A stretch of 64,000 nucleotides of DNA from Leptospiraceae bacterium (lineage in GTDB: Bacteria > Spirochaetota > Leptospiria > Leptospirales > Leptonemataceae), in contig JANXCF010000004.1 in assembly GCA_025059995.1 (NCBI GenBank), forward strand, positions 124,001 to 188,000, written 5' to 3'. How positions within the stretch are numbered: the first letter of the stretch is position 1; every line of letters starts with the position of its first letter. A model generated the notes under the pieces. That model did no database searches. It was not told where the DNA came from and saw nothing but the letters and a program-made list of their open reading frames with translations. Made by a program: the position numbers and the translations under genes. This document shows positions 7,756 to 50,523 of the stretch, in pieces.

Positions 7756-8561
7756 AAAGACAATTGAACATGGGAAGGAGATCCTTCGATATTAGGAACC
7801 GTCTCCTGAATGATTACTCCATCAACACTTTCTTTGATGATGACATCAGTTCGGAAAAAACTTTCAGGTAAAAAATCCTCTGGATTCAACTTGATGTCTT
7901 GAAAAATCACCTCAAAATGTAAGTGAGGTCCTGTTGATCTACCTGTGCTTCCTGAAAAGCCAATAATTTGTCCGATTTGGATTTCTTCATTTTCGAAAAC
8001 CAAAATTTCTGACAAATGAGCATAAAGGGTTTCTTTCCCATCTTGATGATGATGTAAAACGATTGTATATCCATACCCTCCCATCCAGCCTGTTTTTTTC
8101 ACAATCCCGTCTCTAGCAGCTACAACTGGGGTTCCAATCGGAACAGCCATATCCAAACCCTGATGTAATTCATTAAACCTTCTACCATAACGAGAAGTGA
8201 AATCGGGATTTTCAACAGGCCATAAAAAACTTCTTGGATCAATATTAAATATCCTCCGCCCAAAACCTTGTCTTAGGAGTTCTTTTAAATAATCATCCCC
8301 ATATGGCACAAAAATGTACTTTTTTGTCAAATCTTCATTAAGACTTCTGATTGCTTGGACGGTGGTTTGGTATTCATTAGCAAGTTCTTGCAATTTTTTG
8401 GGATTTTGATACCCTTGATTGAGAACCCATTTCCCCTGAGTATTTCGGTAAGTTTGAATATATTTATTATCAATTGCAACACGTATCAACTTCGTATGAG
8501 AAATCGAACTTTCCATCAAAAACAGAAATAAAAAAAAGAAAAATAAATACTTTTTACCCAT
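7752..8561 (-). CDS. Secreted M23 family peptidoglycan endopeptidase
   Basis: 269 residues. An N-terminal signal peptide (KKYLFFFFLFLFLMESSIS) is followed by a short LysM-like region (about 50-95: LQELANEYQTTVQAIRSLNEDL) and an M23/LytM domain with the zinc motifs HQGLDMAVPIGTP (HxxxD) and GPHLHFEV (HxH), separated by LHHHQDGKETLYAHLS. All metal ligands are present, so it is probably active. M23 enzymes cut peptide cross-links in peptidoglycan. The neighbouring rlpA (72-base gap) is also a cell-wall protein. The last 40 residues after the domain are unassigned. Confidence 0.9.
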   Translation of the reverse strand: MGKKYLFFFFLFLFLMESSISHTKLIRVAIDNKYIQTYRNTQGKWVLNQGYQNPKKLQELANEYQTTVQAIRSLNEDLTKKYIFVPYGDDYLKELLRQGFGRRIFNIDPRSFLWPVENPDFTSRYGRRFNELHQGLDMAVPIGTPVVAARDGIVKKTGWMGGYGYTIVLHHHQDGKETLYAHLSEILVFENEEIQIGQIIGFSGSTGRSTGPHLHFEVIFQDIKLNPEDFLPESFFRTDVIIKESVDGVIIQETVPNIEGSPSHVQLSL

Positions 8562-8632
8562 AATTTTTAGTTATTTTGTCAACAAATCCGTTGTCATATT
8601 AAAAATCAAGTGAAAATTTGCAAGCAAAAGCC

Positions 8633-9772
8633 TCATTCAGGTGAGGCGATAAATCCATAATAACCTGCTTCTTCTAGTTTTTGTTTTATAACCTCAGCAG
8701 TGTGTCTCTCTGAAAAATTCCCTACTCGAACTACAAATTCTCGACCTCGCCTAAAAACGAAAACAGGATAAGGCAATTTACTTTCAATTTCTTCTTTTAA
8801 ACGAACTACGTTTTTTATATCCGTAAAAACCCCCACTTGGATCGAGTAAAATTGAGCTTCTTTGATGTCTTTTATCTGATTTTGAAGGCTTTTTTCTTTG
8901 GAAATCAAATTTTCATTTTGAGGGGAAGCACCAACACCTAATTCTGCAGTTTTATAGAAAAATGCAGTAGTTCCTTCTCCCTTATCTTTGAGGTTGCCCT
9001 TTTGTAAAAGTTTGATTCTCACACGAGTTAAACCCTTATGCTTGAAGCCTAATATTTCTGCTGCTTGTTCGGAAACATCCAAGATTCGATTTTTTACGAA
9101 AGGACCGCGATCATTGACTCTCAAGATCACTTCTCTCTGGTTTTCCAAATTCTGAACAAGAATAGTTGATCCTAAGGGAATGCTTCGGTGTGCTGCCGTT
9201 AGTTTTTTACTATCAAATATTTCTCCTGATGCGGTAGGTCTTCCATCAAATTCTTTCCCATACCAAGAAGCAATCCCTTCTTCATCAAAATTCTCCAAAG
9301 AACTTGATGTTGGATATGCTTGGTTTTCGGTTGCACTGCCAGTATTTGAACTAACAACTACGATCGCTTCTTCTTTTTGTTGATTTATGATTGGTTTTGG
9401 TAATTCCCCAATATAAGGATTTTGATTGCTTGTGGTCGTCGATTCTTTTTCATTTTCTTGATTTGTATAACCTGGTGGTTGATTATCAGGCTTACATTTT
9501 TTGCAGATCTTATCGAGATAGGGGTCTTGTTTGCTTAACTCTTCGAAAAAGAGTTCTTCTTCACTTTGATCTTGTGGATTTATCTCTTTTTTATAAGAAT
9601 GGCTTCTTGTCTGGTGGGTTTTATCTTCTTCTTGAGGTTGTTTTTTTTCGGTTGAAAAAAATTTGTTTGGATATGTGTTTTCTATAACTGAAGGTGGTTG
9701 ATTGATGTTTAGACTTATGCAATTTGATAAAAAAAATAAGCTAACAATTAATCCTTTTCTCATCAACTTCAT
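8633..9772 (-). CDS. rlpA: RlpA-like septal ring lytic transglycosylase lipoprotein with SPOR domain
   Basis: 379 residues. The signal peptide ends in the lipobox-like FFLSNC (Cys18). A low-complexity, Lys/Glu/Gln-rich linker (about 30-160) leads to the double-psi beta-barrel RlpA domain: IASWYGKEFDGRPTASGE, LTAAHRSIPLGSTILVQN, VILRVNDRGPFVKNRILDVS. A SPOR domain closes the protein (FYSIQVGVFTDIKNVVRLKE to the end), which binds denuded septal glycan. RlpA proteins are lytic transglycosylases or septal cell-wall factors. It lies upstream of an M23 peptidase and downstream of hemH (33 bases). Confidence 0.9.
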   Translation of the reverse strand: MKLMRKGLIVSLFFLSNCISLNINQPPSVIENTYPNKFFSTEKKQPQEEDKTHQTRSHSYKKEINPQDQSEEELFFEELSKQDPYLDKICKKCKPDNQPPGYTNQENEKESTTTSNQNPYIGELPKPIINQQKEEAIVVVSSNTGSATENQAYPTSSSLENFDEEGIASWYGKEFDGRPTASGEIFDSKKLTAAHRSIPLGSTILVQNLENQREVILRVNDRGPFVKNRILDVSEQAAEILGFKHKGLTRVRIKLLQKGNLKDKGEGTTAFFYKTAELGVGASPQNENLISKEKSLQNQIKDIKEAQFYSIQVGVFTDIKNVVRLKEEIESKLPYPVFVFRRGREFVVRVGNFSERHTAEVIKQKLEEAGYYGFIASPE

Positions 9773-46006: not shown

Positions 46007-47485
46007 ATGGAACAAGAAAGAAAAATACCCAAAGTCATGTCGACACAACACCCCGATAACGTTGATGTCCCCTTTTTTTGTAAAACCTCTGATTTTTCAG
46101 GAGATGATGAAATCCAAGAAGCGTATTATATGTTTTCTCATGCCAATTGTGACGAACAAATGTGGGACAGTGAAGGTAAAGAGATTGATCAATATGTCAT
46201 ACGGAAGTTATTACAAAAATACCAAAACTACTTCAAGAAAAATCGTATAGGCAAAGACAAATTCATTACTCTTAGAATTCCCAATCCCTCGATTGAAAAG
46301 GACGAAGCCAAAATTGTGGTCGAGACTTTAGAAAGTATACCTCGTAGTTTCGATATTGCCAAGTTATTTTACGGCGATGGGGATTATGCTCCTATTTTTG
46401 AAATTATCCTCCCTATGACAACAAGTGATATTGAACTAAATCGACTTTATTATTTCTATAAAAACTATATTTCAGGAAAACAACATTACCCTATCACATA
46501 CGGGGATATTTTAATCAGAGACTGGGTTGGAGAATTTCTACCAGAAACCATCAATGTAATACCTCTTTTTGAGAATGTAGAAAATATTTTGAACTCACAT
46601 AATGTCATAAGAAAATACATTGAAAATAAACATTTTGTCTATCATAGAGTTTTTTTCGCTCGATCTGATCCAGCCATGTATAGTAGCCATATCAGTGCAA
46701 TCTTAGCAAATAAAGTAGCACTGCAAAGGCTGAGAAAACTTTCAGAAGAAACAGGAGTAAAGTTTTATCCCATATTAGGCGTGGGTTCACCACCATTCCG
46801 AGGACACCTCACACCCTACAACGTAGATAATGTTATTAAAGAATACCCAGAAGTATATACATTCACGGTTCAATCAGCCTTCAAGTATGATAACCCCCTT
46901 GAGGATGTTCAAAAAGCCATCAAGAAATTGAAAAATTTTCCTCGAAGACCATTTCATGAAATCGACGAAGAAGAAGCAACATATCTAATCAAAAAAATCT
47001 CAGACAAATATCGAGCCAAACTTGAACAAATTAGTAGTGTAATCAATCAAGTTGCCAAACATGTTCCAAGAAGACGACGAAGAAAAACCCACACAGGTTT
47101 ATTTGGATACTCAAGAAGTATAGGGGATATCCAATTACCAAGAGTGATTGGATTTTGTGCAAGTGGGTATTCTATTGGGTTTCCACCTGAGTTGTTAAGT
47201 ATAATGTCTGTTGATGAGGAAGATTATTCTAAAATTAAACATATCTACGTAAATTTTGAAGAGGATACAAAAGCAGCTCTACGATATTTTAATCCTGATT
47301 CATTAAAACTACTTGGCAATAAATTTCAATCTATCATGAAAATCATTGATCATTTTGAATATGAACCAGATCTAAATCACAAAGAAATTACATCTTCCAT
47401 TATTAACGATCTATTGAGCGGAACTACCTCAGAGATACAAAATAAGTTAGTCGAAGCTGCGCATATACGTAAGTTTTTAGGTTAA
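46007..47485 (+). CDS. ppcA: Archaeal-type phosphoenolpyruvate carboxylase
   Basis: 492 residues. It carboxylates PEP to oxaloacetate. Bacterial PEP carboxylases are about 900 residues; this one is of the short archaeal class, shown by the N-terminal PKVMSTQHPDNVDVPFF (the STQHPDN motif), YGDGDYAPIFEIILPMT, VFFARSDPAMYSSHISAILA, GVGSPPFRGHLTPYNVDN and RRRRKTHTGLFGYSRSI. It replenishes TCA intermediates. Its 3' end overlaps the convergent JAMM gene by 4 bases. Few bacteria carry this type, which suggests transfer or an ancient feature of this lineage; base composition is like the neighbours. Confidence 0.92.
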   Translation: MEQERKIPKVMSTQHPDNVDVPFFCKTSDFSGDDEIQEAYYMFSHANCDEQMWDSEGKEIDQYVIRKLLQKYQNYFKKNRIGKDKFITLRIPNPSIEKDEAKIVVETLESIPRSFDIAKLFYGDGDYAPIFEIILPMTTSDIELNRLYYFYKNYISGKQHYPITYGDILIRDWVGEFLPETINVIPLFENVENILNSHNVIRKYIENKHFVYHRVFFARSDPAMYSSHISAILANKVALQRLRKLSEETGVKFYPILGVGSPPFRGHLTPYNVDNVIKEYPEVYTFTVQSAFKYDNPLEDVQKAIKKLKNFPRRPFHEIDEEEATYLIKKISDKYRAKLEQISSVINQVAKHVPRRRRRKTHTGLFGYSRSIGDIQLPRVIGFCASGYSIGFPPELLSIMSVDEEDYSKIKHIYVNFEEDTKAALRYFNPDSLKLLGNKFQSIMKIIDHFEYEPDLNHKEITSSIINDLLSGTTSEIQNKLVEAAHIRKFLG

Positions 47486-48030
47486 GAAAAACTTTTAACG
47501 AGAACTTTATGAGGAAAAACCAAAGACTCAAAACTATAATAGATTGAAAAACTCCCTGAAAAAGGATCAAAAACAAATCCCAGTGAAAAAGGGAAACGAA
47601 AATATTCTCTTTGTGTGGCTTGATCGGTTCCACTAAAAAAGGGTTGGAAATTAGGATGAGTATGAAACCAACCCAGAATGATTCTTTCGGTATCCTTGAT
47701 TTTTTTATTTGCTTCCTGCCAAATCTCAGGATACATCACCAAATGGAATTCACTACTTTCATAAACTTCTGAACAAACAATATCATCAATCAACCAAACA
47801 TAAAAGCCAAATCCTTCAAAACAATAGCCCAGTAATAAACCTCCCACTTCTGTTGCATGACTTTTTCCATAATTCCACATGAGTTCCCAAGATACCTCAT
47901 CAAAAAAAATATAATAACCTTGCTGAACATAATCTTTGACTTCTTGATATGATAATTTCAATTTCCCCCAAGGTAAAGCTTCAAACGTCTGAAGCTTGAG
48001 GTCCGATTCCGTTTCCTTCCAACTTATCAT
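47482..48030 (-). CDS. JAMM/MPN metalloprotease (deubiquitinase-like) of a ubiquitin-like system
   Basis: 182 residues. A JAB/MPN domain with the full JAMM set: Glu61 in HATEVGGLLLGYC, then GWFHTHPNFQPFFSGTD with His123, His125, Ser133 and Asp136 (HxHx(7)SxxD). So a zinc-dependent isopeptidase activity is expected; eukaryotic and prokaryotic relatives cleave ubiquitin-like proteins from targets or process their C-termini. It is the last gene of the cassette; its ATG overlaps the end of the E1-like gene by 50 bases. It overlaps ppcA tail to tail by 4 bases. Its target is inferred to be the ubiquitin-like protein of 49.5-49.8 kb. Confidence 0.88.
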   Translation of the reverse strand: MISWKETESDLKLQTFEALPWGKLKLSYQEVKDYVQQGYYIFFDEVSWELMWNYGKSHATEVGGLLLGYCFEGFGFYVWLIDDIVCSEVYESSEFHLVMYPEIWQEANKKIKDTERIILGWFHTHPNFQPFFSGTDQATQREYFRFPFSLGFVFDPFSGSFSIYYSFESLVFPHKVLVKSFS

Positions 48031-49117
48031 TTTTAACCACTAAATACGTATGTTCATTTTTAAAAAAATATGCATACTTAAAAGAAATATTTTTTAAGTG
48101 CTTAATTTCTGAAAATTCAAAATGGTCTTTGACAAATGGTTCTAAAGTTCCATGACAATGACTACAAACCAAGTCTGAGTCTTTGTATTTTCTGGAGAGT
48201 TCATAATAATCAACTTTAAAGCCACATTTCCCACAAACACCTTGTATCAAAATAGGCTCATTTAGAAACAAAGTAATGTTTTCAAATTCTTTTTGGAGTT
48301 TTAAAAAATCCTCCCATGATAGAATACTTAGAGAGTTCCAGTTGTGACAAAAAAGGCAATGATCGTTTTTTGTAAGATCCAATCTTTGTAATGATCCATG
48401 AATCGTATCGATGAATAATTTAGTAGGTCTCTCGTAATGGTTTTTATGAAGAAACACCGACAAAGCAAAAGCCCCTGCGATAGAAGATGTAATGATTGTC
48501 GTTGGTATTTTTCTTTCTCGATAGGCTGATCTTTGTATCCAACCACAAGAATAACGTATTTCTATCTGTTCGTAGACTTTTTCATTTAAGCCACACTCAA
48601 AACAAGCAAAGTTATTTAGAAGATGTTTTTTACTTCCATAAGGGTAATATTCCACACTCACAAATTGACTATCCATAGCAACATTGAAAAAATCCACCCC
48701 CGCCAAATAACACAATCTATGGATACGAATACGAGCCTCAAAGTTATCCACTAAGGCAAAAACCCCGTCAAATTTTTTTAATTCTTCGATTCCAAAATGG
48801 TCATAAAAATCTCCATAGATTGAAATAACTTTTGAGTCAGGATTGATTTCCCTTGCCCTTTCTTCTGCTACTTCCACTTTACTTTTGCCAAGGTCTTTTT
48901 CTCGAAAGAGAACCGACCTTGTAAGATTATGGATTTCTATTTTATCGAAATCAACGATCGTAATTTCACCGATACCCATAAGAAGCATATTTTTTAAAAG
49001 CTCATTACCAATTGCTCCAATTCCAATTAGCAAAACTTTCTTCGAGAAGAGTTCTTTCTGATCCAACCAATGGATGGATTGGTGCCTTAGATATTTATCT
49101 AAAAAAATACGTTCCAT
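47981..49117 (-). CDS. E1-like (ThiF/MoeB-family) ubiquitin-activating enzyme homologue
   Basis: 378 residues. Rossmann adenylation domain: VLLIGIGAIGNELLKNMLLM (GxGxxG), VDFDKIEIHNLTRSVLF and DLGKSKVEVAEERAREINP, the ThiF/E1 pattern (DxD, N-L-x-R, DxGxxKV). Cys191 in EIRYSCGWIQRSAYRERKIP, followed by TTIITSSIAGAFALS, is placed as the catalytic thioester cysteine of E1 proteins. Cys172/175 plus Cys254/257 make the usual Cys4 zinc site, and a C-terminal tail adds a second pair, Cys295/298 and Cys318/321 (CGKC...CSHC), a zinc ribbon. E1 starts directly at the stop of the E2-like gene. The combination with E2 and Ubl argues for activation and conjugation. Confidence 0.9.
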   Translation of the reverse strand: MERIFLDKYLRHQSIHWLDQKELFSKKVLLIGIGAIGNELLKNMLLMGIGEITIVDFDKIEIHNLTRSVLFREKDLGKSKVEVAEERAREINPDSKVISIYGDFYDHFGIEELKKFDGVFALVDNFEARIRIHRLCYLAGVDFFNVAMDSQFVSVEYYPYGSKKHLLNNFACFECGLNEKVYEQIEIRYSCGWIQRSAYRERKIPTTIITSSIAGAFALSVFLHKNHYERPTKLFIDTIHGSLQRLDLTKNDHCLFCHNWNSLSILSWEDFLKLQKEFENITLFLNEPILIQGVCGKCGFKVDYYELSRKYKDSDLVCSHCHGTLEPFVKDHFEFSEIKHLKNISFKYAYFFKNEHTYLVVKNDKLEGNGIGPQASDV

Positions 49118-49561
49118 TTAAATCCTCATGAGAGGGAGTTTTGCTTTCTTTTTGTGAAACCAAGTGATTGCTTTTTCATTAGCAACGGATTTCGTATTGA
49201 TGAGCTCAGGATAGAACAAAAGAAGCTTGATGATTCTTTCTACTTCTTGATCTAAAGGGGTAGAAACTAACCACTTTCCACCTCGACAAATATTGCCTGA
49301 TTCATATACGTGAGGATGAAAAACGGGCGGAGAAATGGAAAAATGAGGTGAGCTCATAGGATAATTAGCCGACAGAAGAATTTTCAATATGAATTCTTTT
49401 TGTTTTTCTTTTTCAGAGATAGGCAACGTTAAATCCAGCTTTATTTGTATTTCTGTGATTGGCTCACCTTTAACTTCTACGATTTTTAAAAAACTATATT
49501 TCTTTTCCAGTTCTTGGATTTTTTTTAAATCATTTTCTCTTCTTTTATAGATGGGATTCAT
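49118..49561 (-). CDS. E2-like (UBC-fold) conjugating enzyme
   Basis: 147 residues. It shows the E2 pattern: N-terminal helix (NDLKKIQELEKKYSF), strand segments (VEVKGEPITEIQIKLDL, KEFILKILLSANYPMSSPHF, where the YPxxxP motif lies) and the catalytic region SPPVFHPHVYESGNICRGGK with Cys92 in the place of the E2 active cysteine (HPxVxxxGxxC). A C-terminal helix follows. Expected to receive the Ubl thioester from the E1-like protein and pass it to a target. It starts inside the Ubl gene (17-base overlap) and ends exactly at the E1 start. Confidence 0.85.
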   Translation of the reverse strand: MNPIYKRRENDLKKIQELEKKYSFLKIVEVKGEPITEIQIKLDLTLPISEKEKQKEFILKILLSANYPMSSPHFSISPPVFHPHVYESGNICRGGKWLVSTPLDQEVERIIKLLLFYPELINTKSVANEKAITWFHKKKAKLPLMRI

Positions 49562-49811
49562 TTCCAGCCTCTAAAATTGGCTGAAGTTCTAATATTTCTC
49601 CTTCTTGCAATCCAACTTCAATCAAAGTTTGATCGGGAGATAGCACAATATTTCGATCGACTATCACAAGGTTATAGGCAGTTTCCGTTGGCAGTGACCA
49701 TCGATTTACGCAGGTATCAATCAAGTCAGCAACTGTTACCTCAGGTGAAATTCCAATTTCCGCTTTTCTTGTTTTATCAGCAGTTCGAACGTAGCACATT
49801 AGTTGTGTCAT
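49545..49811 (-). CDS. Ubiquitin-like beta-grasp protein
   Basis: 88 residues. The strand and helix pattern of the beta-grasp fold is visible: MCYVRTADKTRKAEIGISPE, then VTVADLIDTCVNRWSL (helix), NLVIVDRNIVLSPDQTLIEV and GLQEGEILELQPILEAG. This resembles the YukD/EsaB-like Ubl group found in prokaryotic E1/E2 operons, where the last strand ends in AG or AGG. Here Gly83 is followed by five residues (NESHL), so a terminal glycine would need trimming, plausibly by the JAMM protein. A strong AGGAGG precedes the ATG. Conjugation is inferred from the context, not shown. Confidence 0.82.
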   Translation of the reverse strand: MTQLMCYVRTADKTRKAEIGISPEVTVADLIDTCVNRWSLPTETAYNLVIVDRNIVLSPDQTLIEVGLQEGEILELQPILEAGNESHL

Positions 49812-49816
49812 ATGTT

Positions 49817-49822
49817 CCTCCT
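49817..49822 (-). promoter_or_regulatory. Strong ribosome binding site of the ubiquitin-like gene
   Basis: AGGAGG on the minus strand five bases upstream of the ATG at 49811. It is the best such site of the cassette, which fits a need for more Ubl than enzyme. Confidence 0.75.
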
Positions 49823-49872
49823 ATAATAATAGGTAAAAAAACCAAAAAAAGTTTCAAAAAATCGAAAAAAAA

Positions 49873-50523
49873 TTACTCAATGGAAAGAATCATATTCCTA
49901 TTGAAAACCAAAATTTCATATCTAAAAATTTCATGGTTTTGCAGTAATCCCTTGACCGTAATTGTCTTTTTGTCTAATGAGTCTAAAAAACTTTGGCTAA
50001 GTCCAGTATTTGTATTATTTATTAAATTATAAAATATTACCAGCTTGAAACCTTCCACCCACGGCTTGTCTTCGAACATCAAAGCGTAATCCCCCCTACG
50101 ACTTTTAAGAATCTTTTGAACCATACCTCTGAATTTAATCACCCTTCCAACATATGCAGGTAAATCATCAAGGGTAACCAAGTCAGGGTTCATTTGGATG
50201 ACAGGTATTTTTTCAAAATTATCATACGGAATTATCACTTTTTGGCGGCAAACGACACAACAACCCTCATTTTGAGATAAAATAAACTGATAGGATTCCT
50301 CTTGATAAAAAACTGAACACCTTTTGCAGTAATATACTGGTTTTCTGCCATCAAAAACAATAAGTTCACCCGTCAATGGATCATAAATGTCTTCCCAAGG
50401 ATTTATGATTTTAGTTGGTTTCTCTTTTGGTTCTTCTTTTTCTTCATGATGTTTTGTTAGTTCTGAGTTTTCTTCGTTTGAAAGATCTCGAAAATGGGTT
50501 ATTTTTCTTTTGCGACCGGGCAT
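49873..50523 (-). CDS. Zinc-finger/OB-fold protein, first gene of the ubiquitin-like cassette
   Basis: 216 residues. The N-terminus (1-40) is charged and low in complexity. A cysteine group follows, Cys66/69 (YYCKRCSVFY) and Cys88/89/92 (EGCCVVCRQK), a CxxC...CxxC zinc site of ribbon or treble-clef type. The C-terminal 95 residues (about 121-216) look like an OB fold: LPAYVGRVIKFRGMVQKILK, SRRGDYALMFEDK, KTITVKGLLQNHEI, with the G-x-V-x-x-x-G pattern. It could be an adaptor or an E3-like partner, or a nucleic-acid-binding target protein. No RING finger (8 ligands) can be completed. It lies 63 bases after gspJ and 61 bases before the Ubl gene, so it connects T2SS and cassette transcriptionally. 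Confidence 0.75.
   Translation of the reverse strand: MPGRKRKITHFRDLSNEENSELTKHHEEKEEPKEKPTKIINPWEDIYDPLTGELIVFDGRKPVYYCKRCSVFYQEESYQFILSQNEGCCVVCRQKVIIPYDNFEKIPVIQMNPDLVTLDDLPAYVGRVIKFRGMVQKILKSRRGDYALMFEDKPWVEGFKLVIFYNLINNTNTGLSQSFLDSLDKKTITVKGLLQNHEIFRYEILVFNRNMILSIE

Follow-up and report, generated by a model that had tools for sequence, protein, structure and literature searches.

Introduction

Systems for the attachment and removal of ubiquitin-like proteins were once held to be eukaryotic. To our knowledge, most bacterial systems of this type examined to date are mobile, serve defence and are built from divergent parts; those named as immune systems include Bil, Bub and type II CBASS. 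Bil has the gene order Ubl (A), E2 (B), JAMM (C), E1 (D), and its E2 bears a CEHH motif with the spacing C, +6 E, +8 H, +13 H (PMC11354881). Bacterial E1/E2/JAB/Ubl operons had been predicted by Iyer et al. 2006 (PMC1779556), and other such operons, with a RING E3 and FtsH, were described by Kaur et al. 2020. Here, we report a five-gene cassette of this general kind from a Leptospiraceae genome and compare it with these systems.

Results

Layout of the cassette and comparison with known systems

The window, meaning the whole stretch of 64,000 nucleotides analysed, contains five minus-strand open reading frames at 47482-50523, as located by an earlier note made from the letters alone:

49873..50523 (-), ZnOB protein, 216 aa: disordered N-terminus, CxxC(66,69)...CxxC(89,92) zinc module, C-terminal OB-fold
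49545..49811 (-), Ubl, 88 aa, beta-grasp: conserved up to ...LELQPILEAG83, then the tail NESHL
49118..49561 (-), E2 (UBC fold), 147 aa: YPMSSP and HPHVYESGNIC92
47981..49117 (-), E1, 378 aa: single ThiF adenylation domain, crossover-loop C191 (YSCG)
47482..48030 (-), JAMM/MPN+ metallopeptidase, 182 aa: E61, H123-x-H125, S133 and D136

The 3' end of the Ubl gene runs 17 nt into E2, E1 follows directly on E2, and the end of E1 shares 50 nt with the start of JAMM. Several of the starts are preceded by purine-rich, ribosome-binding-like sequences, with AGGAGG upstream of the Ubl start; going by this layout, the five genes probably form one translationally coupled operon. The cassette does sit among housekeeping and secretion genes, its neighbours in the window including type II secretion genes. 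Convergent with it is an archaeal-type PEP carboxylase gene (46007-47485 (+); PF14010, 1.5e-180), which was not found in the other three genomes of the genus and is possibly the result of gene transfer.

The earlier note had placed the cassette close to Bil and equated the two gene orders; both claims had to be given up. Ubl, E2, JAMM and E1 lie within one operon in both cases and the JAMM metal site is intact in the window; however, the order is Ubl-E2-E1-JAMM instead of Ubl-E2-JAMM-E1, BilA contains two Ubl domains whereas the Ubl of the window is a single beta-grasp, Bil E1 is pseudodimeric (inactive plus active adenylation domains) whereas the window E1 has one ThiF domain, and the CEHH motif is missing, L98, S100 and Q105 occupying positions +6, +8 and +13 after E2 C92. 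Because order, Ubl, E1 and E2 features all differ, membership in Bil fails. Type II CBASS (Cap2/Cap3) combines an E2-E1 fusion with a cGAS-like nucleotidyltransferase, whereas E1 and E2 are separate in the window and the block has no such gene.

Types 6a-6e of Iyer et al. resemble the cassette in having E1, E2, JAB and Ubl as neighbouring genes, but none was described with ZnOB; 6a-c are E1-E2 fusions, and 6e has a polyUbl and a JAB-E1 fusion (PMC1779556). Type 6d comes nearer with separate Ubl, JAB, E1 and E2 genes and a small Ubl whose C-terminal Gly is conserved, but encodes an alpha-helical protein where the fifth gene of the window encodes Zn+OB (PMC1779556); furthermore, the 6d E2 lacks the classical active-site His, whereas the cassette E2s have HPH/HPN in the canonical place. 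The Ub-E1-E2-RING operon of Candidatus Caldiarchaeum subterraneum, with its Rpn11, is likewise compact and shares a tailed Ub, an Rpn11-like JAMM and a UBC-type E2, but it is archaeal with a RING E3 and a Gly-Gly end, whereas the window has ZnOB and no recognised RING (PMC5654768). Judged by gene content and motifs, the cassette thus resembles known E1/E2/JAB/Ubl systems in outline and lies outside Bil, type II CBASS and 6d. The comparison covered Bil, type II CBASS, the types of Iyer et al. and the C. subterraneum operon, and a system with ZnOB may already be published.

Families and active sites of E1, E2 and JAMM

We ran the profile searches that the earlier note had proposed (UBC, ThiF, JAB and YukD/Ubl), and all four proteins matched above the curated Pfam cut-offs (ThiF 1.2e-40, UQ_con 7.9e-10, JAB 2e-7, YukD 2.5e-6). 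Profiles built from the orthologues were then compared with solved structures in the PDB: the E1 profile matched Uba1 (5.7e-44) and, across positions 18-284, UBA5, with MoeB also among the families matched; the E2 profile matched the Rad6/UBE2B group (1.5e-12), and the JAMM profile Rpn11 (3.4e-16).

The E1 signatures previously read as GxGxxG, D-F-D and N-L-T-R were recovered as GIGAIGN, D56-x-D58 and N64-L-T-R67, together with the candidate C191. Cysteines 172/175/254/257 form a MoeB-type zinc site, and a further C-terminal zinc-binding extension carries cysteines 295/298/318/321. The E2 motifs YPxxxP and HPxVxxxGxxC and the five JAMM residues are likewise present as described. C191 of E1, C92 of E2 and all five JAMM residues show no variation, either among the four genus orthologues or in distant relatives from a prophage and from Crinalium. 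HPN is the canonical E2 motif; the tripeptide at this position is HPH in the genus and HPN in both distant relatives, while the catalytic Cys is in place throughout. With a UBC-type E2, an Rpn11-like JAMM and a beta-grasp Ubl, these results support a complete E1-E2-Ubl-JAMM set with intact active sites.

Fold and C-terminus of the Ubl

The proposal of a single-domain beta-grasp Ubl was confirmed by an AlphaFold model (pLDDT 86), the confident part of which stops where the conserved AG stops, and by Foldseek matches to ubiquitin, SUMO, NEDD8 and C. subterraneum ubiquitin at a TM of about 0.8. In the PDB profile search, the best native chains were di-ubiquitins (about 3e-5 to 1e-4), single ubiquitin reaching only 0.04-0.1.

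The protein ends in ...LEAG-NESHL, with one Ala-Gly, not Gly-Gly, ahead of the tail. The alignment revealed that this AG is kept in 4/4 congeners and in the prophage Ubl, whose natural end is ...VLVAG, with the AG exposed. The residues that follow in the genus are variable (R, NESHL, IFYESDHKKKRK or SYESYS; 1-12 residues), the longer tails going with overlap of the E2 start. A beta-grasp fold is combined with a free or exposable C-terminal Gly, and the exposed AG on the prophage and the variable tail in the genus are as expected for a pro-form; the Ubl is a putative pro-form whose tail the operon's JAMM would trim. In C. subterraneum, the JAMM cuts a 9-aa tail from Ub and also removes conjugates (PMC5654768), and UFM1, which ends in Val-Gly, provides a precedent for a single Gly at the end (PMC12355090).

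Distribution and mobile relatives

The five-gene block is intact and in the same order in 4/4 sampled genus genomes (Leptospiraceae MAGs, the window genome probably being a MAG too) at protein identities of 41-71%, which points to more than chance conservation. The additional Zn/OB gene listed in the earlier note is indeed present, not as an accidental neighbour but as a conserved fifth member in all four. Among these genomes the block occurs at three addresses, flanked in the window by the type II secretion genes and PEP carboxylase, in two congeners by a chemotaxis gene and serA, and in the fourth genome by sucD and pdxJ; gspJ, sucD, pdxJ and serA lie elsewhere in the other genus genomes, with no cassette beside them. 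Since the five genes stay together while their surroundings change, they are most simply one functional unit. In one congener, the adjoining serA is split into two overlapping frames (L024:9427-11023), a frameshift or an assembly error.

In the phylum sample (393 genomes, 168 genera), neither the cassette E2 nor any UQ_con gene was found in the other 167 genera, leaving 1/168 positive. E1-like matches did occur in other genera; the three loci most closely inspected (L007-L009) are MoeB-rhodanese enzymes. Searches of phages and E. coli genomes found nothing.

All five proteins recur, with a J-domain protein, on the prophage-like contig IMGVR_UViG_2521172724_000002 (L042), at identities to the window of 36% (ZnOB), 43% (Ubl), 34% (E2), 38% (E1) and 30% (JAMM). 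This relative differs in its order (ZnOB-J domain-E1-Ubl-E2-JAMM), its extra DnaJ-domain gene, a C-terminal zinc ribbon on its E2 and its mobile context: the cassette adjoins a BsuBI/PstI-type restriction-modification pair, and the UmuC of the contig is closest to Vibrio plasmids (74%). The small DnaJ-domain gene (L042:4374-4634) overlaps the E1 start.

A four-part relative, E1-Ubl-Ubl-E2-JAB, is carried by the mobilizable plasmid pCRI9333.03 of the cyanobacterium Crinalium epipsammum (L036). Its E1 (38% identity over 254 aa) has the YSCG cysteine and the extra C-terminal zinc cysteines in common with the window E1, and its E2, Ubl and JAMM are homologous to those of the window; it differs in gene order, in having two Ubls, in a JAMM C-terminal extension with a hydrophobic (membrane-like) stretch, and in that ZnOB is not annotated. 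One of the tandem Ubl genes (L036:8165-8413 and 8485-8742) ends in GG-Y; the other is degenerate, without the Gly end.

The ZnOB protein

All four genus genomes and the prophage relative encode ZnOB orthologues. The AlphaFold model (pLDDT 72) has a confident zinc module and OB fold, the latter holding the near-invariant stretch SRRGDYALMFEDKPWVEGFKL; the nearest Foldseek matches were the OB domains of Asp/Asn-tRNA synthetases, RPA and CST. The family has no match in Pfam, NCBIfam, PADLOC or PHROGs. An alignment search of genome contigs returned the three congeners only, and a single-protein search of the same contigs gave no matches.

No E3 ligase was recognised in the cassette. The strand-CxxC-strand-helix-CxxC order of the zinc module at first looked RING-like; we rejected this as evidence for an E3, which ZnOB may nevertheless be: in hhalign comparisons with manually entered references, RING and SP-RING scored no better than Cys-preserving shuffles, and U-box exceeded the shuffles only through a 10-column non-equivalent match. 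Against the PDB, the module showed only weak RPA70 similarity (E 0.17). Since ZnOB is lacking among the annotated neighbours in Crinalium, it may be dispensable for the conjugation chemistry. Plasmids searched with E2 and ZnOB yielded no cassette beyond a lone 70-aa zinc module without OB domain on the Vibrio plasmid NZ_CP072682.1 (L057:124-336), 57.6% identical to the prophage protein.

E1 phylogeny

In the E1 tree, a clade with 100/100 support unites the window, congener, prophage and plasmid enzymes, opposite the phylum's MoeB/ThiF-family enzymes; built without Bil, Bub, Cap2 or archaeal sequences, the tree separates the clade from MoeB/ThiF only. ATP-site residues are common to the clade and MoeB. 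In the clade, C191 lies within an invariant YSCG, the crossover segment is longer by about 13 residues and the extra zinc extension is present. The earlier note had said that its proposal would fall if the E1 proved to be a MoeB/ThiF sulfur carrier; the separate clade and a ThiF-family gene elsewhere in the genome speak otherwise. By this phylogeny, the window E1 is not a MoeB/ThiF sulfur-carrier enzyme.

Discussion

The genes and their linkage, the Ubl and OB folds, the families of the other products, the conserved active sites and the common C-terminal AG are shown by the analysis, and the cassette is probably a self-contained ubiquitin-like conjugation/deconjugation operon. We favour this reading because the families lie above cut-off with matching PDB profiles and a beta-grasp Ubl model, because the active sites are invariant out to the prophage and Crinalium relatives, and because the block is intact in 4/4 genomes at three addresses, with overlapping frames and a prophage Ubl ending at AG. 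The lack of Gly-Gly in the Ubl, HPH versus the canonical HPN in the E2 and the absence of a recognised E3 count against it.

We infer the reactions, including the tail trimming, the role of ZnOB and the targets, as follows. JAMM would trim the Ubl tail and expose ...Ala-Gly83. The E1, presumably a UBA5/MoeB-like homodimer with an ATP site of R11, GxGxxG, D58, N64, R67, K80 and D124, would adenylate the Ubl, take it onto C191 and pass it to C92 of E2; UBA5 is itself a minimal E1, about 400 aa long, whose Cys lies in the crossover loop (PMC12355090). E2 would attach the Ubl to lysines; ZnOB would act as the target adaptor and probably recognise nucleic acid or nucleoprotein through its OB fold. 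JAMM would take the Ubl off the targets again.

The same chemistry could serve anti-phage defence, with infection prompting attachment of the Ubl to components of the phage (or of the cell itself), the model put forward for Bil, Bub and CBASS. The restriction-modification pair beside the prophage relative, the mobilizable plasmid carrying the Crinalium relative and the sporadic, mobile nature of most described bacterial E1/E2/JAB operons (PMC1779556) speak for this. However, the cassette is fixed in 4/4 genus genomes, its immediate neighbours are housekeeping, chemotaxis and secretion genes, and PADLOC returned only weak, domain-level matches to CBASS-type E1/E2/JAB; we therefore regard defence as possible, but the lesser prospect. 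A dedicated single-substrate modification, in which the Ubl is attached to ZnOB itself and switches its nucleic-acid binding, strikes us as unlikely: ZnOB accompanies the other genes in every genus genome and on the prophage, and type II CBASS conjugates its own operon-encoded cGAS-like enzyme (PMC10097602, PMC10449767), but no ZnOB is annotated near the Crinalium relative.

The conserved MoeB/ThiF fold and zinc site of the E1 and the JAB genes that accompany some sulfur operons (PMC1779556) would also fit a sulfur-carrier system, in which the Ubl, converted by the E1 to a thiocarboxylate, would serve cofactor, siderophore or tRNA thiolation chemistry, the E2-like protein having an accessory part. 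This is highly improbable, considering that a UBC E2 with intact Cys is always there, that the block contains no rhodanese or sulfur gene, that the E1s stand apart from MoeB/ThiF, that a ThiF-family gene is located elsewhere (in genome G003 also a MoeB-rhodanese in a Moco cluster), and that the Ubl lacks Gly-Gly. Returning to conjugation, the cassette is likely a constitutively kept protein-modification pathway of the genus, related to systems travelling on mobile elements. It is a rather doubtful further step to see in ZnOB a targeting subunit of a new class, binding nucleic acid through its OB fold and replacing the RING E3, and in the whole a nucleic-acid-directed Ubl pathway that is a core function of the genus, not an accessory defence.

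A set whose E1, E2 and JAMM profiles strongly match the eukaryotic Uba1, Rad6 and Rpn11 is thus fixed in a bacterial genus, accompanied by a Zn/OB partner, strictly linked in genus and prophage, without known family counterpart. If the source organisms are thermophiles, as MAG names that hint at hot springs suggest, their proteins may have the stability that makes reconstitution easy, and bacterial Ubl tagging outside defence, as well as target choice without a recognisable RING, would then be open to experiment.

The relatives were drawn from limited sequence collections, so the true spread of the cassette is probably wider. E1-like genes are cut off at the ends of two viral contigs (L039:4246-4758, adjoining tail genes, and L045:6841-7606) and could be further members of the cassette E1 clade.
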